A DNA stretch of 64,000 nt from Cucumibacter marinus DSM 18995 (lineage in GTDB: Bacteria > Pseudomonadota > Alphaproteobacteria > Rhizobiales > Devosiaceae), in NCBI RefSeq assembly GCF_000429865.1, contig NZ_KE386977.1:1-64000 (forward strand), in the 5' to 3' direction. Positions 10,552-59,973 of the stretch are shown in pieces. Below the pieces are notes generated by a model. The model made no database searches and was not told the origin of the DNA. It worked only from the letters and a program-made list of their open reading frames with translations. A program made the position numbers and the translations under genes. How positions within the stretch are numbered: the first letter of the stretch is position 1; each line of letters begins with the position of its first letter.

Positions 10552-10596
10552 CGGCGTGTCTCCTCTGAGGAGCACCGGCCCGCTCGCTGCCAGGCC

Positions 10597-10731: not shown

Positions 10732-11010
10732 CGTAAACCTTTCGCCGCCTCGATTGCGGCGCCTCTTAGAAATCTCAAAGGCGGTGGAGCCCGGCGACGG
10801 CACAATTCATGCACGCCTGGTGACCGGAGCCGTGCCAAGTTGGGCGGCTTATAGGCAATCGCGCATTTCAAGTCAACGCGTCCGGCGCCTCCGATCGCGG
10901 AATTTGCATCGGATTTCACGCCGCGTCACAACTGGGCGAGAGGGATATCGGATGCGCGGTCAGCCGACTATCGTTCTGCCGCAACATATTAACCGCGATC
11001 CGGACCTTTC

Positions 11011-11814
11011 ATGATCGAGAACGAAACCGTCAGCCAGCCCGATACCGGCACGCAAAAAGCCGGCCGGACGCCGCTTTGGAAGCGGCTTTTGCCTCTTGGC
11101 GTGCTGGTTGCCATTGTCGCTGTGGCGTTCTCGCTGGGCCTGCATCGCTACCTCTCGGTCGATGCACTGATCTCGAACTATCTCGATATCCGTGCCTTCG
11201 TCGCCGAACAGGGATTTGTCGCGCTCTTGATCTTCGGTGCCGTCTACGCCGTGGCCACGGCGTTGAGCTTCCCCGCCGGCTGGCTGCTCACGGTGATGGC
11301 GGGGCTGTTGTTTGGTTGGGTCGCCGGTACGCTGACGGTGATGGTGGGGGCGACGATCGGCGCCTGCGCCATCTATTGGGTGGCGCGCACCGCGCTGTCG
11401 GACTTCTTTCGCGCCCGGGCGGGCAAGACCCTCAACCGCCTGCGCGAAGGCTTCAAGGCGGACGAAGTCAGCTATATGCTGTTCTTGCGCCTTGTCGCTG
11501 CCTTTCCTTTTTCGGTCGTCAATTTCGCGCCGGGCGTGCTGGGTGTCAGTTTCTCGACCTATGCCTGGACGACATTTGTCGGCATCGCGCCGGGCACTGC
11601 CGCCTATGCCTTTGCCGGCGAAGGCCTGGCAAGCGTCATCGAGGCCCAGGCGCGCGCCAATGAAGGGTGTTTCGACCTCGGGCAATCGAGCTGCGATTTC
11701 TCGCTCGATCCCTCGAGCATCGTCACCCCGCAAATCCTGATTGCCTTCGCCGCGCTCGGGGTGGTGGCGCTGATCCCGGTTGCCATCAAGCGCCTGCGTG
11801 GGGCAGGAAAATAA
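11011..11814 (+). CDS. TVP38/TMEM64 family (VTT domain) membrane protein
   Basis: This 267-residue inner-membrane protein has about six hydrophobic helices. Residues ~65-190 match the VTT/DedA-like domain (ALSFPAGWLLTVMAGLLFGW; GATIGACAIYWVAR; LRLVAAFPFSVVNFAPG). Relatives are implicated in lipid scrambling and membrane homeostasis; the exact substrate is unknown. The reductase gene follows 55 bp downstream, and such VTT proteins often neighbour mercuric-reductase-like flavoproteins, so the two probably form one transcript. Confidence 0.85.
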   Translation: MIENETVSQPDTGTQKAGRTPLWKRLLPLGVLVAIVAVAFSLGLHRYLSVDALISNYLDIRAFVAEQGFVALLIFGAVYAVATALSFPAGWLLTVMAGLLFGWVAGTLTVMVGATIGACAIYWVARTALSDFFRARAGKTLNRLREGFKADEVSYMLFLRLVAAFPFSVVNFAPGVLGVSFSTYAWTTFVGIAPGTAAYAFAGEGLASVIEAQARANEGCFDLGQSSCDFSLDPSSIVTPQILIAFAALGVVALIPVAIKRLRGAGK

Positions 11815-11869
11815 CCGGGATCGAAACCGACCGTTTCAACCAACCGCGACCAAAATGGAGCCTGCCGGC

Positions 11870-13297: not shown

Positions 13298-13321
13298 GCA
13301 TTTCCGGCTAACACTAGCCCC

Positions 13322-14773: not shown

Positions 14774-14901
14774 GGCCTCGTCCGGCCCTGGGCAAAAATC
14801 CTTCAGCCTCGCCCCTTGCATTCACCGCGCTGCCGGTATAAGCCTCATCGCCGCGAACCGGACCCGCACCCTTTCGGGCGTCAAACGGTCCATCGCACTG
14901 C

Positions 14902-14978
14902 GCGCTCGTAGCTCAGCTGGATAGAGCACCAGACTACGAATCTGGGGGTCGGGAGTTCGAATCTTCCCGAGCGCGCCA
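14902..14978 (+). tRNA. tRNA-Arg(ACG)
   Basis: A complete cloverleaf: acceptor GCGCTCG/CGAGCGC, D stem GCTC/GAGC, anticodon stem CCAGA/TCTGG with loop CTACGAA (anticodon ACG), T arm with GTTCGAATC, discriminator G and encoded CCA at 14976-14978. Its 3' 54 bases form the left copy of the island's direct repeat, so integration leaves the tRNA intact. Confidence 0.96.
14925..14978. repeat. attL core (54-bp direct repeat inside tRNA-Arg)
   Basis: This is the left copy of the attachment core, from AGCACCAGACTACGAATCTG through the encoded CCA. It covers the anticodon arm, variable loop, T arm and 3' acceptor strand. The bases just outside (G before, ATA after) differ from attR. It also encodes the last 14 codons of the integrase on the opposite strand. 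Confidence 0.95.
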
Positions 14979-16067
14979 ATACTTACCCGCTTCTGGCGTG
15001 TCGTGATTTGCAGCCCGTTTTGCAAAATCCGTTTCCAATACGTTCTCGTATTTGGCCATGGCGCTATCCGCCATCGTGCTGGTCCGCGCCAGATACTTGT
15101 CGAGGATTTCCTGCGCGCGGCGCAGGGAGTGGCCGGTCACAGCGACGATCTCGCCAAGGTTGCAACCCGCCTGAAAGAGCATCGTGACCGCGGTTCCGCG
15201 AAGATCATGAAAATTGAGACCGTCAATCCCGGCTGCCTTGCATGTCTCTTTCCACTGGCGGGCGAAATAACGTTTCTTGAAGGCGAGGCCCGTCTTGGTT
15301 GACAAGATGAGCGTCGACCGACGTTCCGCCTTATCAAGGGCAGACTTCAGGGCGTTAGTGCACTTGATGCGGACCTCCCGGCCGGGTTTGCCGTTGCGGG
15401 CCGTCTTCCCTTGCCGGAGTGTGATATGCGTGCCGCTGTAATTGCTCCAAGCCAACCGAAGCAGGTCGCCCTGGCGCTGGCCGGTGTGAAGAGCCAGCAT
15501 CATCGCGAGCTGCATTTCTGGTGATGCGACAGACGTGAATGCATCGACATGCTCGGGCAGCCAGATCTTGTCCGACCGGTCACCAGAATAAGCGCGATCA
15601 AAACTCTCAAGAACGTTTTTGCGAAGCGGTCCGTCCTTGGCGCCCCACGAAAGGACCCGGGCAAGGATGGTGAGGCGGTTGTCGGCCTCGCGCGGCTTGT
15701 CCTCCGAAAAGCTGTCATGCCAATTGAGAACATCGCGCCGGAACTCTTTCTCCTCGAGCGCCGGATAGGGAACGGATCCGTATTTGCCATCCCAAAAAGT
15801 CAGGACGCGCCGGTATTCCTTTTTTGTGCTGGTAGCGAGTTTCCGCCATTTGTTGGTCTTCTCAAACTCACGGATCAAGCCCGCGAGTGTGCCTGCCAAA
15901 CGATCGCGGTTCTTGGATTCAGCTGCTGCGATGCAGGTCAGGAACTCCGCGGAGCCGGGCTCGCCGTGCAGCCGCGTTCCGGTCGCGCGATGATAGTAGT
16001 AGGTTACGCTGCGACCGTCGGCGAGTTTGCGCGTTGTCCGGTTGATGCCCTTAAGCCTTGCCCGCAT
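14934..16067 (-). CDS. int: Tyrosine recombinase (site-specific integrase)
   Basis: This 377-residue phage-type integrase has a SAM-like core-binding domain (~70-170) and a catalytic domain with the first Arg in HTGQRQGDLLRLAW, a later HDLRGTAV box (H-x-x-R), GHS (third active-site His region) and the nucleophile Tyr in ILDKYLART. I start at the ATG at 16067 (MRARLKGINR) with GGAAGG upstream. The stop falls inside the tRNA: the last residues, REDSNSRPPDS, are antisense tRNA-Arg. It catalyses insertion into, and with the excisionase removal from, the tRNA gene. Confidence 0.93.
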   Translation of the reverse strand: MRARLKGINRTTRKLADGRSVTYYYHRATGTRLHGEPGSAEFLTCIAAAESKNRDRLAGTLAGLIREFEKTNKWRKLATSTKKEYRRVLTFWDGKYGSVPYPALEEKEFRRDVLNWHDSFSEDKPREADNRLTILARVLSWGAKDGPLRKNVLESFDRAYSGDRSDKIWLPEHVDAFTSVASPEMQLAMMLALHTGQRQGDLLRLAWSNYSGTHITLRQGKTARNGKPGREVRIKCTNALKSALDKAERRSTLILSTKTGLAFKKRYFARQWKETCKAAGIDGLNFHDLRGTAVTMLFQAGCNLGEIVAVTGHSLRRAQEILDKYLARTSTMADSAMAKYENVLETDFAKRAANHDTPEAGKYWRAREDSNSRPPDS

Positions 16068-16350
16068 GTTCCGCCTTCCACTTCTCGAAATTGGAAATAC
16101 CACTTTGATTGTTGTGAGCCGCAGTGCGGCTCGACAATCCACTGGACTGGTTGAGAGACTGGTCAATGGCGTGCTTGTCCCACCGACGAACCCGGCCATA
16201 ATCATCAATGGGCGACGGGAGCTTTCCCCGGTTGACCAACTGGCTGAAGTGGCCTGGGCTCACACCAACATAGCTGGCTGCTTCTTTGCGGTTCAGCACG
16301 CGGCGTAGCTCCGGGGGGAGCGCGTGAATGACCTTGGCGGTGATGAGCAT
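16051..16350 (-). CDS. Excisionase/AlpA-like helix-turn-helix protein
   Basis: This ~99-residue DNA-binding protein has a MerR/excisionase-type winged helix (LNRKEAASYVGVSPGHFSQL followed by VNRGKLPSP and RVRRWDKHAID). Its 3' end overlaps the integrase start by 17 bp, so the two are translationally linked. The pairing suggests a recombination directionality factor, or an AlpA-type activator of int. I start at the ATG at 16350; an upstream ATG at 16452 would add 34 Arg-rich residues and seems less likely. Confidence 0.8.
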   Translation of the reverse strand: MLITAKVIHALPPELRRVLNRKEAASYVGVSPGHFSQLVNRGKLPSPIDDYGRVRRWDKHAIDQSLNQSSGLSSRTAAHNNQSGISNFEKWKAEHAGKA

Positions 16351-16420
16351 GGGGCGGGTATCCTTCGCAATTCGACGTTCAATTGCGTTATAGCGTTCGC
16401 GCCACGGCATGCGCCGAAAA

Positions 16421-16579
16421 ATGAAAAATATTTTTCTACGACGGCAATTCATCGACCAAGATGCGACGGACTTCGTGCCGGGTCACAAGCAATTCTATGA
16501 GGTCATCAAGCAGCTCTACTCGGCTGGACGCAAAGCAACTTCCTGCTATGGTCCTCAAATCGCAGTCGATTGTGCCTGA
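16421..16579 (+). CDS. Short hypothetical ORF, possibly a gene remnant
   Basis: ATG 16421 opens a 52-codon frame with protein-like composition (QDATDFVPGHKQFYEVIKQL, then YSAGRKATSCYGPQIAVDCA). No clear ribosome site precedes it, and it lies between the divergent excisionase gene and hsdR. It may be a small real gene or the 3' end of a gene lost when the island was rearranged. I do not recognise a family. Confidence 0.25.
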   Translation: MKNIFLRRQFIDQDATDFVPGHKQFYEVIKQLYSAGRKATSCYGPQIAVDCA

Positions 16580-16581
16580 CC

Positions 16582-16734
16582 ATGCAAACGCCGGAACAAA
16601 AAGCGCGAGAGACAATAAACCAGGCGCTCGAGGCTGCCGGCAGGGTGGTCCGGTCGCCGCGCAGACCTGAATGCAGCTCAGTAGTTTGCGGCGCCTCTAG
16701 ATGCACCGGGGAGGCTACTGTTCAGCATGGATAA
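16582..16734 (+). pseudogene. Possible 5' remnant of a second hsdR-type gene
   Basis: Two bases after the preceding stop, ATG 16582 begins MQTPEQKARETINQALEAAG. This resembles, from memory, the N-terminus of EcoEI-type restriction subunits, where the motif is usually followed by a WxV stretch. After about 24 codons (AAGRVV) the resemblance ends and the frame closes at 16734, overlapping the real hsdR start. It could be the scar of an earlier restriction system replaced by the present one. Confidence 0.3.
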
Positions 16735-19177: not shown

Positions 19178-20415
19178 CGTCAAGCTTGACCATGCCCGAA
19201 GCGCTATCGGCACTCGTCATGGATGATGAGGACCTGAGCGAACTCGAGGCGCTGGTTGCGAAGTTCAACATGTTCCGGGTCCTGAAAGCTGGGCAGAACG
19301 AGCTGCGTCACTCGAACATGCTGGTCTGGCTGTTTAAGCCGACCGAAAGCCACGGTCTGGACGAACAGTTTCTAAGGCGTTGGCTGATGGAGGTCATGCA
19401 TTCTGCCAATCAGAACAACGACGCAGTTCCTAAGTCACGATCTCCGGTTTGGATTGACGCGGCCACCATCTCAAATGTTGAGGTTCATAGAGAGTGGCAC
19501 AACATTGATATCATTTTGGAATTCTCTCTTTCGGTTCTGGGTAAGCAGACAGATTGGGTCATCGCCATCGAAAACAAGGTCAACGCAAAGCAGGGCAAAT
19601 CCCAGCTGCAGGGCTACCGAAGGAGGATTGATGAACACTTTCAGGGAGCAGACGAGCGCAGCTTCGTCTTCCTCACCAAGAATGAGGAGCCGCCGGCGGA
19701 TCCGGCCTGGCTCACATCGACCTATTCGGATGTCCTTCGTGCCCTGGAGCGAAGCGTCGCCGCGCAAAGGGACACGATCGGACGTGAGCCTCTATTTCTG
19801 ATCGAGCAATATATGGAACTTTTGAGGGAGGAATTCTTGGAAGACACCGAGGCCGTCGAACTTGCGCGTGCCATCTACAAGCGGCATGCCGCAGCAATCG
19901 ACTTCATTTTTGAATGCAAGGTTGACCCCATTTTCGAACTCTCCAATCGCTTGGAGGACCGGCTCAGAAACAATGAGGAACAGTTGGGCATCGCCATGTC
20001 CAAATCGGGTAAGGGCCGTGTTCGCCTCATTCCCAAGGCATGGGACACCATGGCAAACGCTGCAGGGCGGGCCTGGGGCGAAAACGGTCACTTTGTTGTC
20101 CTCGAGCTTGATTTCTACCCAAAGGTCGTTGAACTGAACATTGTCGCGGGGGACGGCCCAGAAGACTGGAGGGACAAGCTTTGGGAGCGTTGCGGCGAAC
20201 CGCCGCTGCAGAGATCGCAAAGGACGATACCCCGTCGTTTTCTGAAGGCATATCGCGGAAAGTCAAACATTCGCGTCAATGGCGTCGCCGACCTCGATCT
20301 GGATCTCGAATCCATTGAGGACGAGATATTCGAGTGGGTGAAGGCACATCTGAAGTCGCACAAATTTCAGGAAGCGCAGAATGTAATCACGGGTTTCATC
20401 AAGGAACTACCATAG
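19174..20415 (+). CDS. PD-(D/E)XK nuclease family protein inserted in the hsd operon
   Basis: This 413-residue protein carries the motif set of the PDDEXK_4-type nuclease domain: a leading RHSNMLVWLF segment, then EWHNIDIILEF with the catalytic Asp, and WVIAIENKVNAKQG giving E-x-K. It is not part of a canonical type I enzyme. The likely start is TTG 19174, 9 bases after GGAG and overlapping the hsdR stop by 4 bp; ATG 19192 is an alternative with no ribosome site. It ends 3 bp before hsdM. It may add a second defence activity or protect against escape phages. Confidence 0.82.
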   Translation: MTSSLTMPEALSALVMDDEDLSELEALVAKFNMFRVLKAGQNELRHSNMLVWLFKPTESHGLDEQFLRRWLMEVMHSANQNNDAVPKSRSPVWIDAATISNVEVHREWHNIDIILEFSLSVLGKQTDWVIAIENKVNAKQGKSQLQGYRRRIDEHFQGADERSFVFLTKNEEPPADPAWLTSTYSDVLRALERSVAAQRDTIGREPLFLIEQYMELLREEFLEDTEAVELARAIYKRHAAAIDFIFECKVDPIFELSNRLEDRLRNNEEQLGIAMSKSGKGRVRLIPKAWDTMANAAGRAWGENGHFVVLELDFYPKVVELNIVAGDGPEDWRDKLWERCGEPPLQRSQRTIPRRFLKAYRGKSNIRVNGVADLDLDLESIEDEIFEWVKAHLKSHKFQEAQNVITGFIKELP

Positions 20416-20418
20416 CCT

Positions 20419-21867
20419 ATGTCGGTCCGCACTCTCGTCAAATCCATCCAGGACATCATGCGCCAGGACACCGGCGTGGATGGCGACGCCCAGCGCATCA
20501 GCCAGCTGTGCTGGATGTTCTTCCTCAAGATCATGGACGACCAGGATCAGGAACTCGAACTCCTGAAGGACGACTACCGCTCGCCCATCCCCGACCGTCT
20601 ACAGTGGCGGTCCTGGGCGGCAGACCCGGAGGGCATCACTGGCGATGAGCTGCTGGATTTCATCAATGGCGATCTCTTTCCGACCCTCAAGGAATTGCCG
20701 ATCGCGAGACCTCGCGCGCGCACCGTCCGCGACGTATTCGAGGACGCATACAACTACATGAAATCCGGGCAGCTGATGCGCCAGGTGGTCAACAAGATCA
20801 ACGGTATCGACTTTAACAACCTGACCGAGCGTCAGCATTTCGGCGACATATACGAGCAGATCCTCAACGACCTGCAATCGGCCGGCAACGCCGGCGAATA
20901 CTACACCCCGCGTGCAGTGACTTCATTCATGGTCCAGATGACCGACCCGAAACCCGGTGAGACCTTGTTCGATCCGGCCTGCGGCACCGGCGGGTTCCTC
21001 ACCTGCGCCATCCGCCACATGCGCGAGGCATATGTCAAACGGCCGGAAGATGAGGCGGCGATGCAGGCGAGCCTCCGGGCCGTAGAAAAGAAACAGCTCC
21101 CGCACATGCTGGCAGTCACCAACATGTTGTTGCACGGGGTCGAGGACCCTTCTTTCCTGCGCCACGACAATACGCTCGCCCGGCCCTTCATCTCCTGGAG
21201 CGCGGACGAGCGAGTCGACGTCATCCTCACCAATCCGCCTTTCGGTGGGCGTGAGGAGGACGGGATCGAAAGCAACTTCCCGCCGCACTTCCGCACCCGC
21301 GAGACGGCGGATCTTTTCCTCGCACTGATCATCCGTCTGCTTAAAGCCGACGGTCGTGCGGCGGTGGTCCTGCCCGACGGCTCGCTTTTCGGCGAGGGCG
21401 TCAAGACCCGGCTCAAGGAGCACCTGATGGAGGAATGCAACCTCCACACCATCGTGCGCCTGCCGAACTCGGTGTTTCGGCCCTATGCCTCGATCGGAAC
21501 GAACCTGTTGTTCTTCGAAAAGGGCGCGCCCACACAGGACATCTGGTTCTGGGAGCACCAGGTGCCGGAGGGACAGAAAGCCTACTCCATGACCCGGCCC
21601 ATCCGGCTGGAGCACCTCGCCGACTGCGTCGCCTGGTGGGGAGGTGCCAAGCGGGAAGGGCGGCAGGAGACCGAGCGCGCCTGGAAGGTGAGCGCCGAGG
21701 AGGTGAAGGCCCGCGGCTACAACCTCGACATCAAGAACCCGCACAAGGTCGAGGAGGATCACGGCGACCCCGAGACACTGTTGAAAGACCTGACCAGCGC
21801 CGAGGCCGAGGTGGCGGCGCTCCGCGACCAGGTGAAGGCGATCCTGTCCGAGGCGCTCGCAAGATGA
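20419..21867 (+). CDS. hsdM: Type I restriction-modification methyltransferase, M subunit
   Basis: HsdM transfers a methyl group from SAM to adenine N6 at the site chosen by HsdS. The 482-residue product has the N-terminal helical HsdM domain (residues 1-~130), SAM motif I in LFDPACGTGGFL and catalytic motif IV NPPF, with the N6-adenine methylase fold through ~400 and a C-terminal helix that contacts HsdS. The AGEYYTPRAV signature is intact. Its TGA overlaps the hsdS ATG (ATGA). Confidence 0.95.
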   Translation: MSVRTLVKSIQDIMRQDTGVDGDAQRISQLCWMFFLKIMDDQDQELELLKDDYRSPIPDRLQWRSWAADPEGITGDELLDFINGDLFPTLKELPIARPRARTVRDVFEDAYNYMKSGQLMRQVVNKINGIDFNNLTERQHFGDIYEQILNDLQSAGNAGEYYTPRAVTSFMVQMTDPKPGETLFDPACGTGGFLTCAIRHMREAYVKRPEDEAAMQASLRAVEKKQLPHMLAVTNMLLHGVEDPSFLRHDNTLARPFISWSADERVDVILTNPPFGGREEDGIESNFPPHFRTRETADLFLALIIRLLKADGRAAVVLPDGSLFGEGVKTRLKEHLMEECNLHTIVRLPNSVFRPYASIGTNLLFFEKGAPTQDIWFWEHQVPEGQKAYSMTRPIRLEHLADCVAWWGGAKREGRQETERAWKVSAEEVKARGYNLDIKNPHKVEEDHGDPETLLKDLTSAEAEVAALRDQVKAILSEALAR

Positions 21868-23576
21868 ATGCGGAAAGGCTGCTTGCCCTCTACGAGAAGG
21901 TGGCCGAGGCGCCCGACGTGGTTCCCCGCCTGCGCCGCTTCGTGCTGGACCTCGCCGTGCGGGGGAAACTGGTGCCGCAGGAGCCGGGAGACGAACCGGC
22001 ATCTGAGTTGCTCAAGCGGATCGCGGCGGAAAAGGCGCGGTTGGTCAAGGCGGGGGAGATCAGGAAGCCAAAGGCGCTTCCCACGGTTGACGATCAGCCC
22101 TTCGCCCTGCCGCCGAATTGGCAGTGGGTCCGAATCCGTGAAGTCACCAGCGACCGAGGGCAGCGCGTTCCGGACGGGGACTTCACCTACATCGATGTGA
22201 CCGCCATCAACAAGGAAGCTGGCGTCGTCGCAGAACCAAACGTGCTGACCAAGGATGAGGCACCGAGCCGGGCGCGCAAGGTCGCTGCAAGAGGGGATGT
22301 GCTCTATTCCTGTGTTCGCCCTTACCTGCTGAACGTCGCGGTGCTGGATCAGGAATTCGATCCTGCTCCGATCGCTAGCACCGCATTTGCCGTTCTTAAC
22401 GGTCACGACTTGGTGTTGCCGTGGTATCTCTGGATCGCCCTACGCAGCCCTTTCATGATCGAATGCGTGGAGGAAAACCAGCGCGGCCAAGCCTATCCGG
22501 CGATCAATGACAAGGATTTCGCGCTGCTGCCGTTCCCTCTCCCACCCCTCGCCGAGCAGCGGCGGATCGTGGCGAAGGTGGACGAACTGATGGCGCTGCT
22601 GGACCGGCTGGAGGCGGCCCGCACCGCGCGCGAAGTCACCCGCGACCGGCTCACCGTCGCCAGCCTTGCCCGCCTGACCGAACCCGAGGTGGGTGCGGCC
22701 GATTTCCCGGCCAACGCCCGCTTCGCCCTCGCCACGCTCCCCGCCCACACCACCCGCCCCGACCAGATCAAACCCCTCCGCCAGACCATCCTCAACCTCG
22801 CCGTCCGCGGCAAACTGGTGAAGCAGGACCCGACCGACGAACCGGCGTCAGAGTTGTTGGAGCGGATCGCGCCGCAAATTGAGGGTCAAAAAGGTGGTCG
22901 CGGACGCAGAGCTAAACCGCTTCCCGCTCTCGATCTTGCCGATGCTCCGTTCGAACTGCCGGACGGGTGGGTCTGGGCGCGCTTCCCCGAACTCGGCAAG
23001 TTCGGCAGAGGAAAGTCCAAGCACCGCCCGCGCAACGATCCCGCGCTATACACGGACGGAACCCATCTGATGATCCAAACCGGCGATGTGGCTCGATCAG
23101 GCGGCAGGATCACGACCTACACGAACAAATACAACGATGTCGGTTTGGCGCAGAGCATGCTCTGGCCCAAAGGGACGCTCTGCGTCACCATTGCCGCCAA
23201 TATTGCAGACAGTGGCATCCTCAGTTTTGATGCTTGTTTCCCCGACAGCGTCGTTGGTTTTGTGCCGGCTTCGGTATTCGAGAACGCACGATATTTCGAA
23301 TACTTCGTGCGCACCGCGAAAGCGAACCTCTTGGAGTTCGCGCCATCGACGGCACAAAAGAACATCAATCTCGAAATCCTTACATCAGTCCTGATCCCCA
23401 TCCCACCCCTCGCCGAACAACACCGCATCGTGACCAAGGTCGATGCCCTCATGGCCCTCTGCGACCGGCTTGAGACTGCCCTCACCACCGCCGACACCAC
23501 ACGCGCCCACCTCCTCGAAGCCCTCCTTCACGAGGCGTTGGAACCCGCCGCATCACAACGCGAGGCAGCGGAATGA
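21864..23576 (+). CDS. hsdS: Type I restriction-modification specificity subunit
   Basis: HsdS recognises the bipartite target for both methylation and cleavage. The 570-residue product has two target-recognition domains (~residues 75-215 and ~360-510), each followed by a conserved helical spacer (PPLAEQRRIVAKVDELMALL and PPLAEQHRIVTKVDALMALC), plus an N-terminal segment repeated mid-protein (LAVRGKLV at ~33 and ~315). The start at ATG 21864 overlaps the hsdM stop. The two TRDs are unlike each other, implying an asymmetric recognition sequence. Its own stop overlaps the next start. Confidence 0.93.
   Translation: MNAERLLALYEKVAEAPDVVPRLRRFVLDLAVRGKLVPQEPGDEPASELLKRIAAEKARLVKAGEIRKPKALPTVDDQPFALPPNWQWVRIREVTSDRGQRVPDGDFTYIDVTAINKEAGVVAEPNVLTKDEAPSRARKVAARGDVLYSCVRPYLLNVAVLDQEFDPAPIASTAFAVLNGHDLVLPWYLWIALRSPFMIECVEENQRGQAYPAINDKDFALLPFPLPPLAEQRRIVAKVDELMALLDRLEAARTAREVTRDRLTVASLARLTEPEVGAADFPANARFALATLPAHTTRPDQIKPLRQTILNLAVRGKLVKQDPTDEPASELLERIAPQIEGQKGGRGRRAKPLPALDLADAPFELPDGWVWARFPELGKFGRGKSKHRPRNDPALYTDGTHLMIQTGDVARSGGRITTYTNKYNDVGLAQSMLWPKGTLCVTIAANIADSGILSFDACFPDSVVGFVPASVFENARYFEYFVRTAKANLLEFAPSTAQKNINLEILTSVLIPIPPLAEQHRIVTKVDALMALCDRLETALTTADTTRAHLLEALLHEALEPAASQREAAE
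21951..22028 (+). repeat. hsdS internal direct repeat, copy 1 (copy 2 at 22797-22874)
   Basis: The two 78-bp segments encode near-identical peptides (LAVRGKLV...DEPASELL..RIA) and are clearly alike at the DNA level. They mark the N-terminal and central conserved regions of HsdS, where recombination can swap target-recognition domains. Confidence 0.75.
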
Positions 23577-24289
23577 GTTCGACGACCGAGCGATTTCTCC
23601 GTTTGTTTGAGGAGATGGTAGGCGAGGTGAATACGCGTGCCGGGGACGAAGAGTCTCATTCGTTTCTGATCGAGCGCGCAGCCAGCCGCGATGGGGCAGT
23701 CAAGAAACACCAGGGCCTTCTCAAATACATCCGAGACGTCCGCAACGCTCTGCAACATCCCAAGCACCGGTCGGAGGGGCACGCGGTCCTGATCACCGAG
23801 CCATTTCTGGAAGAGGTCGCGTCCCTTCTGAACCACCTCCAAAATCCCGTCCGCTCCCGTTCTCTGGGGGTGCCGCGCAAGCAGATAAAGACCGCCCAAC
23901 TGTCGGACTGCCTTGGCGACCTGGCCGACGACATGAAGACGCGAGGCTTCAGCCATGTGCCAATTCTGGACGATAGCGATGTGCTAATCGGCGTTTTCAA
24001 TGAGGCCGCGGTGTTTGCGTATCTTTGGTCTGATGACGCGGTGATCATCGAGCGCAGCATGCGCATTGAGGAAATCCTTCCGCATTGTCGCCTCGATGCG
24101 CAACATACAGAAACGTTCCAGTTCGTCGGGCCCAACCGGCAGCTTGAAGACGTGATCGACATGTTCCTCGCGCTGAAATCCCCAACGACGCGAATAGGCG
24201 CGGTGTTCGTGACCGCATCCGGAAAGAGCACTGACAAACTGCAGGGTATGATCACCCCCTGGGATGTTCTTCATGGGGCCACATCGTGA
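23573..24289 (+). CDS. CBS-domain protein linked to the hsd operon
   Basis: This 238-residue protein has an N-terminal helical region (residues ~1-85) and a C-terminal CBS-like module (LADDMKTRGFSHVPILDDSDVLIGVF; ITPWDVLHG). CBS pairs bind adenosine nucleotides, so a regulatory role in sensing ATP/AMP or related nucleotides is conceivable. The start overlaps the hsdS stop (ATGA) and its stop overlaps the next start (GTGA), so it is firmly part of the restriction operon. No catalytic motif is visible. Its function with HsdRMS is unknown. Confidence 0.75.
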   Translation: MSSTTERFLRLFEEMVGEVNTRAGDEESHSFLIERAASRDGAVKKHQGLLKYIRDVRNALQHPKHRSEGHAVLITEPFLEEVASLLNHLQNPVRSRSLGVPRKQIKTAQLSDCLGDLADDMKTRGFSHVPILDDSDVLIGVFNEAAVFAYLWSDDAVIIERSMRIEEILPHCRLDAQHTETFQFVGPNRQLEDVIDMFLALKSPTTRIGAVFVTASGKSTDKLQGMITPWDVLHGATS

Positions 24290-24756
24290 GCGACAACGTG
24301 GATTGGGAACAGGTCGCTCGCTACCTCGATGACCTATACATTGCCACCGACGGACTAGAGCGGATGTTCCCCGGCCGCAGATTCACGCTGGATGGCCATC
24401 TTGTCGGCAGCATTAGGGAGGTGGTCGCGGCCTATGTGTTCGACCTCGAACTTTGCCCTGCCTCCTCTCGCGGTCATGACGCCAGGTCGCGCGATGGCAG
24501 GATGGTCGAGATCAAGTTGACTCAAGGGAAGGCAATAGCAATGCGGCACGAACCGGAGCACTTGATCGTCCTTCACCGTTCAAAGGGCGGACCAATACGG
24601 ATCGTGTTCAATGGACCGGGCGCACTTCCGTGGGCCAAGGCCGGAAACATGCAGTCGAATGGCCAGCGGCGGATTTTGCTGTCGCGCCTGACCGATATGG
24701 CAACAAAGGTTTCGGCCAGTCAGCAATTGCTTGAGATACGAAGACCTCCTGTGTGA
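24286..24756 (+). CDS. DUF6998-like putative PD-(D/E)XK nuclease
   Basis: This 156-residue protein resembles the DUF6998 family: FPGRRFTLDGHLVGSIREVV near the N-terminus, then GHDARSRDGRMVEIKLTQG, where Asp and E-x-K fit a restriction-like nuclease core, and NGQRRILLSRL near the end. It starts at GTG 24286, overlapping the CBS gene's stop, and is the last gene of the coupled run. The family often accompanies restriction systems; its substrate is not established. Confidence 0.72.
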   Translation: MSDNVDWEQVARYLDDLYIATDGLERMFPGRRFTLDGHLVGSIREVVAAYVFDLELCPASSRGHDARSRDGRMVEIKLTQGKAIAMRHEPEHLIVLHRSKGGPIRIVFNGPGALPWAKAGNMQSNGQRRILLSRLTDMATKVSASQQLLEIRRPPV

Positions 24757-24815
24757 TCAGGTCGCGCCTCTAAGAACCCAACCCGCCTGGCAGTCCCGAA
24801 CATGGAGGTCAGCAA

Positions 24816-25073
24816 ATGAGTAAATCCGGAAAAGACTCCCCCGAAGTCGTGGAGTTCATGGCTCTGTTCGCGCGCTTGAAGCTCTACTCCGACGACATGC
24901 CTGACGACCTTGCTGAACAGGCTGCCTCTGACACAAGTGTGAGAGAATTGTGCATACAGCTTTCGATGGCGGCACGTTCTCTCAAGATGAACGAGCGCAG
25001 GGCGCGCGTGCTGTTCGCCGCACCGGTCGATCCGGCATTCCTGGCCGCATGGCGCGACTATGAAGAACGCTAA
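24816..25073 (+). CDS. Small hypothetical protein (or N-terminal half of an interrupted gene)
   Basis: ATG 24816 has a good ribosome site (GGAGGT) and encodes 85 residues, acidic then basic, with no membrane segment or recognised family. It ends at an in-frame TAA (25071-25073). The same frame then stays open for another 231 codons with coding-like sequence, so this may be the first part of a ~317-residue protein broken by the TAA. Confidence 0.55.
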   Translation: MSKSGKDSPEVVEFMALFARLKLYSDDMPDDLAEQAASDTSVRELCIQLSMAARSLKMNERRARVLFAAPVDPAFLAAWRDYEER

Positions 25074-25316
25074 GAAAGTATCCTGTCAGGCATTTGGCTG
25101 TCCGACCTGCTTCCTGAACTTGGCAGGTCCGAGCCTTCCCGCGTTCCGAAGGCGGATCTTCAATGGGAGAACGCCGATGAGGAAGCGGAAGAGCAGGCGA
25201 GAGGCATTGAGGAGTCGATCAACTTCGCGCAGTTCAACATCGATCAGGAAGAGCGATGGGTTGATCAACCGGAATTCAGCGAACGGATTCAGGAGGGGAT
25301 CTCCGCCTGGGAGAGA

Positions 25317-25769
25317 TTGAGTCAGGATACGGAGTTTGATCTTCGGAGCGTTTTTCGAAGGCGGGCCCTTGTTCCCTTCGTGCTCGTCCCTCGGCACGTC
25401 GCAGCCAAGACCGGAAGCGCGGATAAGCTGTCGATGCTGACGAACCTGCAACAGGCACACGACGCTTTCGTTTTCGGTGCGCCCCACGCCGCCATTGCTC
25501 TCATGCGGTCCATCTTGGAGGCCGTGCTGCGTGATCACTACGCAGCAAAGGGGAAGGATCTGGAGGAACGCATCCGAAATGCGCGTAGACGACTTCCTCC
25601 CGGCGCGAACGAGGGTGCTCTGCATCGACTGCGAAAGCTCGCAAACGTGATCCTGCACCTTGATCGCCAGAAGGATGAGGGTCTGATCAAGATGGACGAG
25701 GTGCGGCTGGAAAAGGAGGTCGTATCACTGCTCTTCGTGCTGCGCGCCCTCATCGAAGGGGTAAAGTGA
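25317..25769 (+). CDS. DUF4145-like helical protein, start uncertain
   Basis: TTG 25317 is the only canonical start codon in this frame after the TAA at 25071. It would give 150 residues, with a helical block, NLQQAHDAFVFGAPHAAIAL then MRSILEAVLRDHYA, that recalls DUF4145-type proteins found near restriction systems. The 240 bases before it, 25074-25316, are in the same frame, lack a stop and encode acidic protein-like sequence (SDLLPELG, EERWVDQPEFSERIQEGISA). The gene may really begin upstream with a rare start or be the 3' half of a broken gene. Confidence 0.5.
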   Translation: MSQDTEFDLRSVFRRRALVPFVLVPRHVAAKTGSADKLSMLTNLQQAHDAFVFGAPHAAIALMRSILEAVLRDHYAAKGKDLEERIRNARRRLPPGANEGALHRLRKLANVILHLDRQKDEGLIKMDEVRLEKEVVSLLFVLRALIEGVK

Positions 25770-25955: not shown

Positions 25956-26591
25956 ATGAAACGTCCGAATTCGGTGAAGGCGCTGGAGGACCTGGGGCGG
26001 GTCCGGCTGTCGAAATCCTTCTTCATGCGCGACATGCTCTATTCCGAGGTGGGCAACTTCTTCGGCGTTCCCAACATCCCGGACGATCCGGACTTGGCGA
26101 TTGAGGCTGCATCCAGGCTGTGCACGGAGCTGCTGGAGCCACTTCAGGATCGCTTCGGACGTATTTCCATCCGTTCTGCCTTCAGATCCTGCGAGGTCAA
26201 CCAGCTCTGCAACGAAAAGCAGCTGGGCTGCTCGCGGAACGAAGCCAACTACGCGGCCCATATCTATGACCGCCGGGACGCGGATGGCTTCATGGGGGCC
26301 ACAGCATCAATCGTCGTCAACGGCTTCATCGACTACTATGAACGCACCGGACACTGGCAGGCCCTGGCGTGGTGGATCCATGATCACCTTCCACCCTGCA
26401 ATACCTATTTCTTCCCCAAGCTTGCGGCCTTCAACATCCGTTGGCATGAAAGGCCAGGCCGCACGATCAAGAGCTATGTGCCACCCAAGGGTGTCCTCAC
26501 CCAACCGGGAATGGACAACTTCGATGGTTCTCACGCCAGTGAGTATGCAGACTTCATTGCGGAGTTTGAGAAGGGTTCGAGTTCTATCTAG
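25956..26591 (+). CDS. M15-like putative metallohydrolase, conserved hypothetical
   Basis: This 211-residue protein shows the layout of M15 (VanY/Hedgehog-fold) zinc peptidases: IRSAFRSCEVN (72-82, like the SGYRS..VN segment), H102 and D108/D110 in AHIYDRRDADG, and a final W-H pair in FNIRWHE (163-164). It has no signal peptide or membrane helix, so a role on peptidoglycan is doubtful unless it is released by lysis. I recognise the overall sequence type as a conserved uncharacterised protein of accessory regions. GGAGAG precedes the ATG. A cytoplasmic hydrolase acting in defence is one possibility. Confidence 0.65.
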   Translation: MKRPNSVKALEDLGRVRLSKSFFMRDMLYSEVGNFFGVPNIPDDPDLAIEAASRLCTELLEPLQDRFGRISIRSAFRSCEVNQLCNEKQLGCSRNEANYAAHIYDRRDADGFMGATASIVVNGFIDYYERTGHWQALAWWIHDHLPPCNTYFFPKLAAFNIRWHERPGRTIKSYVPPKGVLTQPGMDNFDGSHASEYADFIAEFEKGSSSI

Positions 26592-26657
26592 CTAGAAGCC
26601 TGCCGGCATCAGTAGTGAACACTCGCTTCGCTCGTCTGCGCGGCCTTCGGCCTTGCG

Positions 26658-26674
26658 GGGCGCCTGCGGCGCCC
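26658..26674. terminator. GC hairpin between convergent genes
   Basis: GGGCGCC (26658-26664) and GGCGCCC (26668-26674) pair around TGC. It sits between the M15-like gene and the convergent HUH gene, within a stretch of CTTCGCTCG/GGCCTTCGGCC repeats. It probably separates the two transcripts; no T-run is present. Confidence 0.4.
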
Positions 26675-26818
26675 GCCGACTTGGTTGCTATTTCGAATAT
26701 GTCTGCAGCCATATCTTTCAACTGCCGCCTGAAACAGGCAGCATTGAAACGACTCAAATCCACCCATAGGTTACTAGCCGCCCCCGCTTGGCGGGCGACA
26801 GCATCGCGGTCCCTAGGA

Positions 26819-27343
26819 CTATCCCCGAACAAAGGCATCCGGAAGAATATAGTTCTCGAAGTTTAGCTTAACGCCAAGTGATTTTGCAAGGTAACCTATT
26901 GCATCTTCTTGATTGATTATGGGCCTGACATCGACATTGCCGCTCGGCACCAGCGTTTGCCAATTTGTGTTAGCGAGTGTATCGAACAGTCTGGCTTGTC
27001 GTTCCAGCTCATCGCCTTCCGCCTGATAGAATCGAATGAGTCCATGCCAATGTGGATTGGTTGACGCCTTTTCCAAGGTGTAGACGTAGAATAGCCGGCG
27101 ATGGTGAAGATTTGCCCACTCCCTGCCAAAAATCCGGCGGTTCATACGAGCGTCCCATTTCCGGAGCTCACGTTTTTGCCGACTGATCTCGTTGTCGGAG
27201 TAGTGGCCGGTTGATTGTCCATCGCCAGGTTGGTTGAAAGCTAGCGTAACGGAACGGTCCCATTTCCATTGGCCGATGAATTCCTTCCAGGCGTCAATGG
27301 TATCGTCGGATGGTGCCGTGCTGGGCGTATGTGTGTTTGCCAT
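26819..27343 (-). CDS. Small HUH endonuclease, rolling-circle Rep-like
   Basis: This 174-residue protein carries the three motifs of rolling-circle replication initiators in order: motif 1 SVTLAFN (31-37), motif 2 HWH in PHWHGLIRF (97-105), the metal-binding HUH, and motif 3 with Tyr151 and Lys154 in AIGYLAKSL. Such enzymes nick one strand at a hairpin or iteron origin and stay covalently attached through the tyrosine. No helicase domain is attached, so it would rely on a host helicase. It could be a replication initiator, a mobilisation nickase or a domesticated relative. A long inverted repeat lies 176-244 bp upstream of its start. Confidence 0.72.
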   Translation of the reverse strand: MANTHTPSTAPSDDTIDAWKEFIGQWKWDRSVTLAFNQPGDGQSTGHYSDNEISRQKRELRKWDARMNRRIFGREWANLHHRRLFYVYTLEKASTNPHWHGLIRFYQAEGDELERQARLFDTLANTNWQTLVPSGNVDVRPIINQEDAIGYLAKSLGVKLNFENYILPDAFVRG

Positions 27344-27518
27344 GCGCTCTACATACGGCGATAGGCCGGCATTTCAAGAAATTTGTTTAATTTTCACAAG
27401 AGGTTGGTCAGGGCCGTGGGTAAGCCGAAGCAGGAGGTGGCTTGCGGGATGTGTAGGGTCGGTGAACCTTCGGATATGGCTCCGGGACCGGATCATGAGA
27501 TCCGTTCCTAGTATCTTC

Positions 27519-27587
27519 CCGTTCCGTCTCTCTACCTTATTTGTATATTTTCTTAAGAGTAGTAATAAAGGTAACGAGACGGAACGG
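27519..27587. repeat. Long inverted repeat upstream of the HUH gene
   Basis: CCGTTCCGTCTC (27519-27530) is the exact reverse complement of GAGACGGAACGG (27576-27587). After a 2-bp mismatch the pairing continues with TACCTT (27533-27538) and AAGGTA (27568-27573), plus flanking ATT/AAT. The AT-rich loop contains TTAAGAGTAGTAAT. It would extrude as a cruciform or single-strand hairpin, the kind of structure HUH enzymes bind. Confidence 0.75.
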
Positions 27588-28149
27588 ATGAGAGGTCGGA
27601 CGCTCCGGATTCGATTTCCATCTCCCGGGACCAGATCTAAGCATACCGGTTCAAACCGGCTTACCCCAAAGAGTCGTGATTGGCGGAGGCCGGGCGATAG
27701 GTTCCGGTCAGATCGTTTGCTCGGTTGTCCGCCGATGATTTCCCGAAACGCAGATTGTGCAACATAGGAGGCCGCCGGGCGGGGGATTTGAACCGTTGTG
27801 ATCCATGGCGCGCCCCATCCAATCGACCAGCCCTTCTAACCCTCTATCCTTTCACTCACCAACTCACACACTCACCTGTCTACGCTCTCTATGCCTGGCA
27901 CATGATAATGCGTCTCTCACCAGTTTTCAGTATCCATACCCATTATGAGTTAGATGCTCATTCCCGGGTCTATGCGAATATCTATCGGTGTAGCTGTGGC
28001 CTTGCGATTGCGCTCAGATGCTCAGGGGTGCTCGCTGGCGAGAAGGGATAGTGCGTCAAGTCTATCTGCTCTTCGAACGCTGCGGGCGCTCTCTGTGCGC
28101 TTCTATGTTGTTTGGGTGTGCCCGAGCCAGGCCTGTCTCGGGACCTTTT

Positions 28150-28360
28150 GAGTTTGACACTTTCCCGAAAAACGCGAATTCGGGCGCTTTTGTCAACTTA
28201 GTGTAAAACTCTGTCAAACTCGGTGCCGGGAATCCGGGCCTTTGTCGCCTTTCTGGTTGGCATCATGTCAAACGAGATAGGCTCAAATTTCGGCTGAGTT
28301 TTACACTTTTGGCGTCCGAGTTTGACACAATGTAAAACTCACGTTGACACAATGTAAAAC
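28150..28360. repeat. Iteron-like cluster of GAGTTT(G/T)ACAC motifs
   Basis: At least eight copies or near-copies of GAGTTT(G/T)ACAC in both orientations: 28150-28160, 28201-28211 (reverse), 28212-28221 (reverse), 28266-28276 (reverse, partial), 28296-28306, 28318-28328, 28331-28340 (reverse), 28343-28350 and 28353-28360 (partial). Positions 28318-28340 form a 23-bp near-perfect palindrome, and a second similar one follows at 28343-28360. Irregular spacing rules out CRISPR; origin iterons or an operator array fit. Confidence 0.7.
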
Positions 28361-28611
28361 TGATAGGGGAGGATAGGGCGCCGGGTGCCGGCTTACACTC
28401 GACTGATCCCCATCAGTGATGAAACCCGCCCTAGGACTTCGCTTCGGCAGGCTGGAGGGCGTATCCTGGTCGCTTTCGATCGCACCCATTGCAGTTTGTG
28501 TTGGGTGTGGGGAAACCTGTGGCGGTCAGTATCTCGACCGAGACACGGCATCCGATTCGTGGCGGTCGATCCCTTGGAAGTGAGCCATTCCTAATTGGCG
28601 CGGTATCGCGT

Positions 28612-29148
28612 TCAGTTGCCGTCCTTGTGCCTGAGGTCACTGATCTGGGTGAAGGCATTGAATGCGCTCCTCAGGGTCTTTGGCGTCGCGTTATGGCCAT
28701 ATCCGTGGACGGTGGCTCCATCTTCTTTCAGTCGAAGCACGAGTGGTGTGAAGTCTGCATCGTTGGTCAGGATGGCATAGTTGGGTTGCGGACGCGTCAG
28801 GTGAAGCTCCATCGCATCGATGGCGAGACTAATGTCGGCCGCGTTTTTTCCCTGCACCAGTTTGGGCAAATGACGAAAGAAGACGCCGCGCTCCTTCGCA
28901 ACGTGAGACCAGGAACCAACGGATTTGCCATTCAGGTTCCCGTGCACGCGCACCGCGCAGATCCGATGCGTTGCCTGAATTGACCGCAACACCCGGTCCG
29001 CGTGGTTCGGACCGATGCTGTCTCCGTCAACGAAAATCGCGATGTCGGTTGCGGACCTTCTCCCAAGAGCGAGCGAGCCTTGGTTCCATTTCAACCGCGA
29101 AGGAATCGACCTGCTCATTGACTTCAGCCCGTGTGTTTTCGGTGCCAT
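28612..29148 (-). CDS. NYN domain (LabA/DUF88-type) putative ribonuclease
   Basis: This 178-residue protein is built on the PIN-like NYN fold: IFVDGDSI with acidic D41 and D43, GKNAADISLAIDAMEL, and AILTNDADFTPLVLRL, giving the four conserved acidic residues expected for metal-dependent RNA cleavage. I start at the ATG at 29148 (MAPKTHGLK), seven bases after the XRE stop. The N-terminal ~30 residues are basic and may bind nucleic acid. With the XRE gene it resembles a toxin-antitoxin or regulator-effector pair, but this is inference. Confidence 0.82.
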   Translation of the reverse strand: MAPKTHGLKSMSRSIPSRLKWNQGSLALGRRSATDIAIFVDGDSIGPNHADRVLRSIQATHRICAVRVHGNLNGKSVGSWSHVAKERGVFFRHLPKLVQGKNAADISLAIDAMELHLTRPQPNYAILTNDADFTPLVLRLKEDGATVHGYGHNATPKTLRSAFNAFTQISDLRHKDGN

Positions 29149-29155
29149 GCGCTTC

Positions 29156-29560
29156 TCACTTTCCAAACAGACCACGGATAAGGGACCTGCCCCTTGTCGT
29201 CACGGCCGGATCGGAATGATCCGAGGCATCGCGGATCTCGTGAATCCACATGGCTTCATTGCGTGACACGACAGTGTGGAAGATTTCCCCGAATACGCGC
29301 GATGCAGCAGAGCCATCCCATTGTTCGAGGGTGAGCTGGAGCAACCTGGCCGGATCGACATCGAGGGCCTTCGCGAGCGCGGGCACCCGGTCAAGGGGAA
29401 GGCGGGTCGCGCCCGACTTGATCATCGAAAGCATGTTCGAATTGATGAAGCCCGCTTGGCCGGCGATCTCCGCCTGACTCTTGGTGTGCCTCAGTTCCAG
29501 GATCCGCTTCTCAAGGAAGCGGGTCAATCGGGTGTTCGAGTAGGGCTTTTTGGCCGGCAT
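29156..29560 (-). CDS. XRE-like helix-turn-helix regulator
   Basis: This 134-residue protein has a Cro/C1-type helix-turn-helix at ~residues 25-70 (KSQAEIAGQAGFINSNMLSM, then IKSGATRLPLDRVPALAKAL). The C-terminal half contains a short helical region with no recognised domain. It precedes the NYN gene by seven bases on the same strand, so one transcript is likely and autoregulation is plausible. The ribosome site is weak (AAAGAC). Confidence 0.82.
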   Translation of the reverse strand: MPAKKPYSNTRLTRFLEKRILELRHTKSQAEIAGQAGFINSNMLSMIKSGATRLPLDRVPALAKALDVDPARLLQLTLEQWDGSAASRVFGEIFHTVVSRNEAMWIHEIRDASDHSDPAVTTRGRSLIRGLFGK

Positions 29561-29863: not shown

Positions 29864-31414
29864 GTGGAAGACGATGCCAGAGATGCCGCTTATTTCCAGG
29901 GGAAGGCATTGTCCGCCGGACACAAACTGGCCGGTTGGGCGGCGTTGGTGCAGAGACTGAACCTGAAGGCTCCGGTGCGCGCACCGAGTTGTATATCCGC
30001 AAAACACGTCAGCGGGAGTGTGCGCCAGGATGGAGACTGGCACATCTACGACAAGCGCTATGATGCCGGCGACAACGTCACAGATCACCTGGCTTTTGCA
30101 TTGCGCCATGAGAGCATCGATCTGCTCGTCCTGAAGCGCGCTCTCGATGCCGTTCCGGGACGGGAAATCGAGCAATACGTTCGCGCAGCGCCCACGGGCA
30201 AGACCGCTCGTCGTCTCTGGTTCTTCCATGAGTTGCTGACCGGTCGGGAACTGCAGCTCGAAGATGCACCAAACGTCACCGCCGTCGATGCGTTGGATCC
30301 CGATCACTATTTCACTTCCGAACCCAAGCTCTCTCAACGTCACCGGGTCAGGGACAACCTTCTTGGCAATGCCGGTTTCTGCCCTACGGTTCGCAAGAGC
30401 GATTCAATTCTCGACTATCTCAAGCTCGATCTCGGGAACAAGGCGCGGGAGACAATCGGCAAAATCGGTGCAAGTCTGACTGCACGGGCGGCCAGTTTCA
30501 TGCTGTTGGCAGACAGTCGCGCCAGCTTCGAGATCGAAGGCGAGCGACCGCCGCAAAGCCGTATAGAACGTTGGGGAAGGGCCGTGCTGGAAGCCGGGAA
30601 GCGCCCGCTCAACCAGACCGAAATCGTTCGGTTGCATCACGTTCTCATTGGCGATGACCGGTTCACCAAAATCGGCTATCGCCAAGACGGCGTATTTCTG
30701 GGGGAGCGAGATCACAACAATGATCCGATCCCAGAGTTCATCGGCGCGCGGCCCGGCGACTTGATCGACCTCATGACTGCATTCAATGAATGCAACAACC
30801 GCATGCGGTCCGCCGACCTGGATGCAGTCGTTCAGGCAGCGGCAATCGCCTTCGGCTTCGTCTACATTCACCCCCTGGCAGACGGGAACGGACGGCTGCA
30901 CCGTTGCCTGGTCCACCACGTGCTGGCTGAGCGGGGGTTCACGCCACCAGGAATGGTGTTTCCCGTGTCTTCGGTCATGCTGGAAGAAATCGAGGAATAT
31001 CGCGATACGTTGCAGACTCAAACCTCACCCCTGATGCCCTTCATCGAGTGGAAAGCCACGAAGGACCACAACGTTGAAGTCACCAACGATACGGCAGATC
31101 TCTATCGCTTTTTCGATTGCACTGCCGAGGCGGAGTTCCTTTACGAATGTGTTCGCCGCACCGTCGAGCACGATCTGCCTCGAGAAATAGATTACCTACA
31201 GCGTCACGATGCGGCGATGCGCCGGATCATGAACGAGATCGAGATGCCGGATCGATTGGCGCAAAGCCTGATCATGTTCATCCGTCAGAACGACTTCCAA
31301 CTGGGCCGACGGCGGCGGGAGAATGAGTTCGCGAAACTGACGGACGCTGAAGTGACGATCGTAGAGACGATCGTGGGTGAAGAATTCGAGGGTCTTGAAG
31401 GGGCAACGCCGTAG
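29864..31414 (+). CDS. Fic domain enzyme with built-in inhibitory helix
   Basis: Fic proteins usually transfer AMP from ATP to target hydroxyls. This 516-residue product has the full motif HPLADGNGRLHR (from His336; HPFxDGNGRxxR consensus) and, before it, S221-x-x-x-E225-G226 in SFEIEG, matching the (S/T)xxxE(G/N) inhibitory motif. It is thus a class II, self-inhibited Fic that needs no separate antitoxin. About 180 N-terminal and 130 C-terminal residues lie outside the core. The start is GTG 29864; an in-frame TGA closes the frame just upstream. Confidence 0.88.
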   Translation: MEDDARDAAYFQGKALSAGHKLAGWAALVQRLNLKAPVRAPSCISAKHVSGSVRQDGDWHIYDKRYDAGDNVTDHLAFALRHESIDLLVLKRALDAVPGREIEQYVRAAPTGKTARRLWFFHELLTGRELQLEDAPNVTAVDALDPDHYFTSEPKLSQRHRVRDNLLGNAGFCPTVRKSDSILDYLKLDLGNKARETIGKIGASLTARAASFMLLADSRASFEIEGERPPQSRIERWGRAVLEAGKRPLNQTEIVRLHHVLIGDDRFTKIGYRQDGVFLGERDHNNDPIPEFIGARPGDLIDLMTAFNECNNRMRSADLDAVVQAAAIAFGFVYIHPLADGNGRLHRCLVHHVLAERGFTPPGMVFPVSSVMLEEIEEYRDTLQTQTSPLMPFIEWKATKDHNVEVTNDTADLYRFFDCTAEAEFLYECVRRTVEHDLPREIDYLQRHDAAMRRIMNEIEMPDRLAQSLIMFIRQNDFQLGRRRRENEFAKLTDAEVTIVETIVGEEFEGLEGATP

Positions 31415-32509: not shown

Positions 32510-32563
32510 AGCACCAGACTACGAATCTGGGGGTCGGGAGTTCGAATCTTCCCGAGCGCGCCA
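32510..32563. repeat. attR core (54-bp direct repeat of tRNA-Arg 3' part)
   Basis: This is an exact copy of 14925-14978, ending in GCGCGCCA. The 5' part of a tRNA is missing upstream, so it is not a functional tRNA. It marks the right boundary of the island; about 165 bp of sequence with CTTCGCTCG repeats separates it from the cupin gene. Confidence 0.95.
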
Positions 32564-32727
32564 CTTCTTCTCGCTCACGGCAATTTCGCTTCGCTCAATG
32601 CCTCCGCGGGGGCGGCCTGACCGGCCGGCTCGCGCTTCGCTCGCTGGCGCGATCAAGTTGCACGCCGTGGCGCGCCATTTTCCCTCATGATGATTTCGAT
32701 GGGTCCACGGCGCTCGCCGCACCGCCC

Positions 32728-59691: not shown

Positions 59692-59744
59692 GACACCGAT
59701 AAAGCCCTTGTGCCGATTGCCGAATCCCCGCTTATTGGCGGGCG

Positions 59745-59932: not shown

Positions 59933-59973
59933 CATTTCAACTCAACCGGCCGGGGTGTGCCGAGGAGACGACG

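Follow-up and report, generated by a model that had tools for sequence, protein, structure and literature searches.

What would a small Rep-type endonuclease do in a chromosomal island, and on which side of its gene would its DNA site lie? The question is raised by the first 64,000 nucleotides of contig NZ_KE386977.1 of Cucumibacter marinus DSM 18995 (the window, which is the whole stretch analysed), where the gene for a 174-residue HUH/Rep-like endonuclease sits in a 17.6-kb island integrated at tRNA-Arg(acg). A first-pass annotation had joined this gene and the 1.27 kb of repeat-rich non-coding DNA upstream of it into a replication module, with the upstream DNA as the origin-like part. We find the conserved non-coding feature on the other side, as a covarying structured element that begins directly after the stop codon of the gene and accompanies it throughout the family. 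The origin reading is right in kind and on the wrong side of the gene.

When the flanks of nine homologous loci were printed side by side, downstream similarity was visible in eight, the exception being the distant locus L030. Its extent was measured on 20 of the 21 pairs from seven loci (the close pair L022-L024 was omitted), using shuffled sequences as controls. The first 120 nt after the stop codon gave z values of 3.6-15.1 in all 20 pairs, and at 250-400 nt downstream z was at most 1.5 in 19 of them, with 5.0 for L025-L026, where a helix-turn-helix (HTH) gene starts. Within this conserved stretch a core, described by the covariance model R1, comprises a helix P1 enclosing hairpin H1, and a second hairpin, H2; a domain B follows (Table 1). 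In an alignment of eight sequences (A7), 12 of the 24 pairs of P1, H1 and H2 change on both sides, a count that none of 500 shuffles reached, and 94.2% of the cells are paired as against 27.9-53.2% when the sequences are slid; the further pair types were matched by 11 of 500 shuffles. An alignment of 10 sequences, which was fitted to the model and hence leans to it, raises the count of such two-sided changes to 14 of 24 pairs (32 cells), with 93.7% of cells paired and again no shuffle of 500 as high. Pairwise identities of the element were set aside, being inflated because gaps could be placed freely. Among the pairing cells of the element are 27 G.U, 5 A.C and 10 other mispairs, G.U making up 27 of the 222 standard pairs (12%). 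Since there are 27 G.U cells to 5 A.C, the gene-sense strand is the one that folds. For the element of the window, compared with 200 shuffles each, the fold had a z of -2.99 as sense DNA (0/200 as good), -2.18 as sense RNA (3/200) and -1.45 as antisense DNA (14/200).

Domain B is a series of short hairpins, many of them with GNA triloops, and in some loci it is truncated or changed; the similarity between L021 and L023 stops roughly at its end. Triloops of the C-(GNA)-G kind are exceptionally stable in DNA. The motif is also in use in aptamer papers. At 32573-32660, just beyond the distal end of the island, are short GC-rich hairpins; they contain CGCTTCGC-like stretches and by eye look similar to domain B. 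Against Rfam 15 only a tRNA and a cobalamin riboswitch (RF00174, at 59729-59945, 148 bits) reach the gathering score in the whole window, and 26500-28700 has sub-threshold matches only. A literature search that left subscription papers mostly uncovered showed, among the top-ranked titles and abstract openings listed, none that deals with this element or with covarying structure at the stop codon of an HUH rep gene.

By searching the 136 genomes of the family we found that gene and element occur together. An HUH homologue is present in nine genomes (E<=0.001, the window's own genome counted), and R1, run under stricter filters at the cost of weak matches, has one match each in the same nine and none in the other 127. 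Two of these matches, in G010 (5.4e-14) and G125 (3.4e-6), lie outside the set from which the model was built. In nine of 10 loci, namely the nine of the family and that of G402 from another family, the match starts no more than 2 nt from the stop codon; in the tenth, that of G125 (L028), the HUH open reading frame (ORF) is longer and its final 56 nt fall within the match. That ORF is without the usual stop and extends into the element at 13799-13854, the element still scoring 40 bits. A scan of named genomes identified four relatives as Devosia contigs. Beyond the family, profile searches found HUH homologues in 7 of 397 sampled genomes of the order (E<=1e-4) and in 4 of 385 of the class (E<=1e-10), own genome counted in both. 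R1 matched four of the 397 order genomes, which are the window's own, G049, G402 and G270. The last match (E 0.003) is put down to chance, no HUH gene being seen in the 3.1-kb locus and the match running antisense in an ORF that looks by eye like a cytochrome oxidase. The domain B pattern occurs once in the own genome with up to 3 mismatches allowed; this lone site and the single R1 match per genome (9/9) led us to reject a dispersed repeat of the repetitive extragenic palindromic (REP) kind.

The protein bears out its earlier description, with an intact ORF and the motifs SVTLAFN, HWH and Y151-x2-K154 in order. In an alignment of 11 sequences, in which the relatives share 29-45% identity with the window protein, E91, H98, H100 and Y151 never vary, while conservation is at least 90% for T33, L34, N96 and K154. 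Motifs 1 (TLxF), 2 (HUH) and 3 (YxxK) are thus ordered and conserved as in Rep (Y1)-type enzymes, and because the conservation holds across 11 sequences they are more than a chance resemblance. An AlphaFold model from five sequences is of moderate confidence (predicted local distance difference test, pLDDT, 69; predicted template modelling score, pTM, 0.71). It places motifs 1 and 2 on strands and Y151 on a helix (145-154), in an order of strands and helices that would fit the HUH fold. For the fold, support from viral models is fair and that from solved structures weak. Against viral models (BFVD), Foldseek gave 47 matches at E<=0.001; 40 are unnamed and seven named, five of these as Rep, replication initiator or ORF2-G2P, one as a parvovirus nonstructural protein and one as an uncharacterised protein from a single-stranded (ss) DNA molecule. 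In the PDB, chains of adeno-associated virus (AAV) Rep and parvovirus NS1 match weakly (E about 0.02-0.1). VIA-align scored the model at Z 7.6 against 2x3g (SIRV1 ORF119, which we take to be a Rep protein) and Z 6.8 against AAV5 Rep, and unrelated ferredoxin-like proteins tie with these. As the PDB matches are weak and the tie exists, the HUH fold of the 174-residue protein is likely, not proved. The Pfam family PF23343 (REP_ORF2-G2P) matches six of nine relatives at E<=1, with a best score of 23.9 bits against a cut-off of 27.8 and every displayed score sub-threshold; the match covers motifs 1 to 3 in four of eight rescanned proteins, and the window protein has no match at E<=1.

The upstream gap is non-coding as described, its longest stop-free stretch being 153 codons. 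It is repeat-rich in one place. GAGTTTKACA (one mismatch allowed) occurs seven times, in both orientations, at 28150-28362, and a 20-bp inverted repeat (90%) at 27519-27587 forms a long hairpin; 48 of 49 tiling windows of the same size hold at most one copy of GAGTTTKACA, and the 49th overlaps the cluster. An exact 18-nt direct repeat is found within the cluster, at 28322 and 28344. The cluster is possibly a regulator site or a transposon end; an IS21-type end was suspected and nothing was found to show it. As the origin-like part of the module the upstream DNA is not supported: none of the other 135 genomes of the family matches it at E<=0.001, and the stretch of about 290 nt on the 5' side of the homologous genes gives z of at most 2.2, near the shuffles, in 19 of 20 pairs (4.2 for L021-L023). 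A search of the own genome gave, besides the region's own position, the inverted repeat within it (E 0.09) and a single weak site (E 0.63); no second copy of the inverted repeat was found there. When 28130-28400 was compared with plasmids as DNA the best E was 0.8. Of the 136 family genomes two contain the pattern AGTTTGACACNNTGTAAAACT, the second as a single site with 2 mismatches, and the backward control was likewise found in two genomes, once each.

Table 1. Positions of the gene, the structured element and the island features in the window
Feature	Position	Strand	Remarks
HUH/Rep-like endonuclease gene	26819..27343	-	174 aa; motif 1 SVTLAFN at residues 31-37, HWH at 98-100, Y151-x2-K154; ORF intact
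Core of conserved structured element (model R1)	26705..26818	-	begins at the base right after the HUH stop codon
Enclosing helix P1	26767..26815	-	26815-26812 with 26770-26767; paired in 10/10 sequences; 2/4 pairs changed on both sides
Hairpin H1	26777..26802	-	loop CAA in the window, GAA in 6/10 sequences
Unpaired TAGTA after H1	26772..26776	-	8/10 sequences by eye; candidate nick site
Hairpin H2	26722..26743	-	covarying
Unpaired ATATGG after H2	26709..26714	-	CTATGG in 7/10 sequences by eye; candidate nick site
Domain B	26622..26674	-	H3 (26674-26658), H4 (26652-26642, GGCC-GAA-GGCC), H5 (26634-26622); varies more among relatives than the core
Upstream non-coding region	27344..28611	.	1,268 bp; not conserved; GAGTTTKACA cluster and one long hairpin
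NYN-domain protein	28612..29175	-	PF01936; same strand as HUH gene
XRE-type HTH protein	29156..29560	-	in 8/9 genomes with HUH gene, 16/127 without
tRNA-Arg(acg), island target	14902..14978	+	
att repeat, integrase end	14925..14978	+	
att repeat, distal end	32510..32563	+	displaced tRNA 3' end
Tyrosine integrase	14934..16208	-	PF00589
HTH_17 protein	16051..16452	-	PF12728; probable excisionase

The island that carries the module is bounded by a direct repeat of the 3' end of tRNA-Arg(acg) (60 nt, 97%, at 14925 and 32510), and the site-specific integrase together with these attachment (att) repeats defines it as an integrative element. Its G+C content in 1-kb windows is 0.53-0.65, with 0.65-0.66 in the left flank and 0.57-0.61 just to the right. 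Defence-type cargo occupies 16727-25769 and 29864-31414, with type I restriction and methyltransferase genes, PDC-S26 between them and a Fic protein matching PDC-S24. Both att copies could be located for four islands, those of the window (17.6 kb), G082 (19.5 kb, tRNA-Arg), G040 (58.5 kb, tRNA-Arg) and G099 (24.5 kb, tRNA-Gln), and all four contain the HUH gene, the element and the HTH protein. In the window, G082 and G040, which have related integrases, the integrase gene reaches att or stops beside it, and the HUH gene, co-oriented with it, would lie on the other side of attP, at 5.2, 1.7 and 3.0 kb respectively from the distal att; near the HUH gene and distal att G040 has a 1.3-kb insertion relative to G082, with ORFs that look IS3-like by eye. 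The integrases of G099 and G087 are of another type (DUF6538 with PF00589). G074 was omitted from the gene-order argument since its integrase is internal to the candidate island and only a 17-nt repeat marks the latter. In G001, from another genus of the family, a tRNA-Arg locus has a related integrase and HTH gene and no HUH gene within the 20 kb fetched, so the HUH module is optional.

The HTH gene is enriched in genomes with the HUH gene (counts in Table 1; Fisher 2.5e-6, relatedness not corrected for). In 7 of 11 HTH loci with no HUH gene nearby (the pair recurs in L091-L096 and L100; the 11 loci, some cut by contig ends, come from 25 HTH matches) the NYN gene also follows. HTH-NYN was therefore rejected as an obligate partner of HUH, and because NYN follows HTH also where HUH is absent the pair is treated separately and is probably a module of its own. 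A single-sequence prediction for the NYN protein gave no usable fold (pLDDT 38). In L021 about 7 kb of cargo (10256-17080, transporter- and flavoprotein-like by eye) parts the HUH block from the HTH-NYN block; the two are adjacent in L023.

Given the conserved motifs, the covarying sense-strand structure, the one-to-one association in cis, the island borders and the gene order, we lean towards a reading in which the protein is a single-domain HUH nickase that belongs with the rolling-circle initiators, and the element beginning at the stop codon is the cognate site in cis, acting on the excised circle. Origins of rolling-circle replication combine a binding site and a nick site (PMC5714925, in its accessible part). 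The element would be a binding and nick region resembling a double-strand origin, folded in the gene-sense strand. We infer that the protein would bind hairpins H1, H2 or domain B, that Y151 would cut an unpaired stretch beside a hairpin, the candidates being TAGTA after H1 and YTATGR after H2, and that the cut would start strand displacement on the excised circle. After excision the order in the window, G082 and G040 would be xis-int-attP-...-HUH-element. Excision would put the HUH gene downstream of xis-int and in the same orientation, and therefore circularisation could switch the module on. The earlier idea of a replication module in the island stands as far as a HUH/Rep-type protein (from its motifs, the viral Rep models and the sub-threshold PF23343 scores), an integrated island and an adjacent candidate cis site are concerned.

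Other uses of the same parts were considered. Rep-type proteins in integrative and mobilizable elements (IMEs) serve as relaxases and/or initiators, as far as the accessible parts of two papers go (PMC5704250; PMC7563843), and this makes a close rival of the proposal in which the HUH protein would be a relaxase derived from Rep, with the 3' element as its origin of transfer (oriT) and the island mobilised by a resident conjugative element. It would suit an island that has an integrase and in which no conjugation gene was recognised among 12 ORFs scanned with Pfam and three more with PADLOC only (the HsdS-like ORF 21435-23576 was left out). The nicking chemistry required is the same, and the present data do not separate relaxase from replication; a coupling protein was, however, not recognised among the scanned ORFs either. 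In addition, 174 residues is small for a relaxase, and we regard this use as improbable, if to be taken seriously. The element may instead work as RNA, whether as a stable 3' non-coding RNA from the HUH transcript, as an RNA partner of HUH or as a transfer or regulatory RNA. The excess of G.U (27 of 222 standard pairs) over A.C (5 cells) and the position next to the stop codon in nine of 10 loci would favour this. There is also a precedent in the sgm-sRNA of SGI1, an island-encoded RNA that comes from a primary transcript's 3' end and that transfer requires (PMC9299015, in its accessible part). The sense strand nevertheless folds better relative to shuffles as DNA than as RNA, and many of its loops are the C-(GNA)-G triloops that are exceptionally stable in DNA. 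HUH enzymes, moreover, are established to act on ssDNA, and we consider an RNA role unlikely. A specific form of it, in which the HUH nickase and a structured RNA from the tail of its own mRNA form a ribonucleoprotein whose role is to nick or tether the island once excised, would seem more doubtful still. Were the element to work as RNA, HUH enzymes would have a partner of a new kind.

A single-strand transposase, or a system like the REP-associated tyrosine transposases (RAYT), would make the 3' element a transposon end or REP-type hairpin. It could account for the hairpins adjoining the gene and for the presence of structure 4er8 among the weak Foldseek matches, but is already contradicted by the sequence comparisons, and we give it hardly any credence. 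RAYT go with many dispersed REP palindromes, and here there is one R1 match in each of nine genomes and one domain B site in the own genome; IS200/IS605 elements have hairpins at both ends and transposed copies, and here the upstream side is unconserved in 19 of 20 pairs, leaving no conserved opposite end, and the element is single-copy. The motif order TLxF, HUH, YxxK is also that of Rep-type proteins. It would seem just as improbable that the module is a relic or has some other use such as defence, the structure being an mRNA stability element. The cargo is rich in defence genes (type I restriction-modification, PDC-S26 and the PDC-S24 Fic protein) and the HUH gene of G010 is truncated at its N-terminus, which speaks for such a reading. 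The catalytic motifs are kept, though, at about 40% identity, PADLOC recognised none of the HUH, NYN and HTH proteins at E<=0.001, and no U-run follows the hairpins by eye.

Several observations weigh against the reading of an initiator with its cis site. No HUH relative was found by tblastn in plasmids (two queries) or phages (one query), nor by peptide patterns in IMG/VR viral contigs, which would be odd for a replicon. In seven more distant HUH relatives (G447, G155, G350, G042, G747, G812 and G574) R1 reached no E below 0.68 in the loci of about 3 kb that were searched. The element is retained in G010 despite the truncated gene, and the ORF of G125 runs 56 nt into it. A second att copy was not located for G049, G087, G010 and G125 in the stretches fetched, the integrase of G099 points the opposite way, and co-orientation of xis-int and HUH in three of three islands is a 1-in-8 event and weak statistics. 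The 12% of G.U pairs and the abutting stop codon fit RNA equally. Finally, the model of the protein is of moderate confidence; at E<=0.001 nothing in the PDB matches it, and the best PDB matches are of unrelated folds, with an unrelated DapE in first place.

The closest published arrangement is the Rep-Arvir module of the betapleolipovirus SNJ2. According to the accessible part of the paper (PMC13107129), a conserved hairpin downstream of rep is the likely origin and the replication operon is restored only after excision. SNJ2 and the window share an integrated element, a hairpin-forming element just 3' of rep and an operon that is, or would be, formed by end-joining on excision. SNJ2 Rep-Arvir, in contrast, is set apart from the HUH superfamily in that paper and linked distantly to Rep_trans, it belongs to an archaeal virus, and its function was tested experimentally. 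The pairing of rep with a hairpin origin 3' of it, which the paper describes for SNJ2, may thus also occur with HUH enzymes in defence-carrying islands of bacteria. The first-pass view that such a module had not been described for this kind of element was too strong, as Rep-derived initiators or relaxases are known in integrated elements (PMC5704250, in its accessible part). Streptococcal IMEs and the integrative and conjugative elements (ICEs) with MobT, such as ICEBs1 and Tn916, have relaxases of the RCR-initiator type and resemble the window in being integrase-borne with Rep-type proteins for transfer and/or maintenance; they have, however, other Rep families and are found in Firmicutes, and a multi-helix element that covaries and sits at the stop codon of rep goes unmentioned in the same part of that paper. 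SGI1 with its sgm-sRNA is likewise a mobile island with a non-coding functional part beside a mobilisation gene, but its MpsA is a tyrosine recombinase, not an HUH protein, and the RNA nature of the SGI1 part was tested experimentally (PMC9299015, again in the part accessible).
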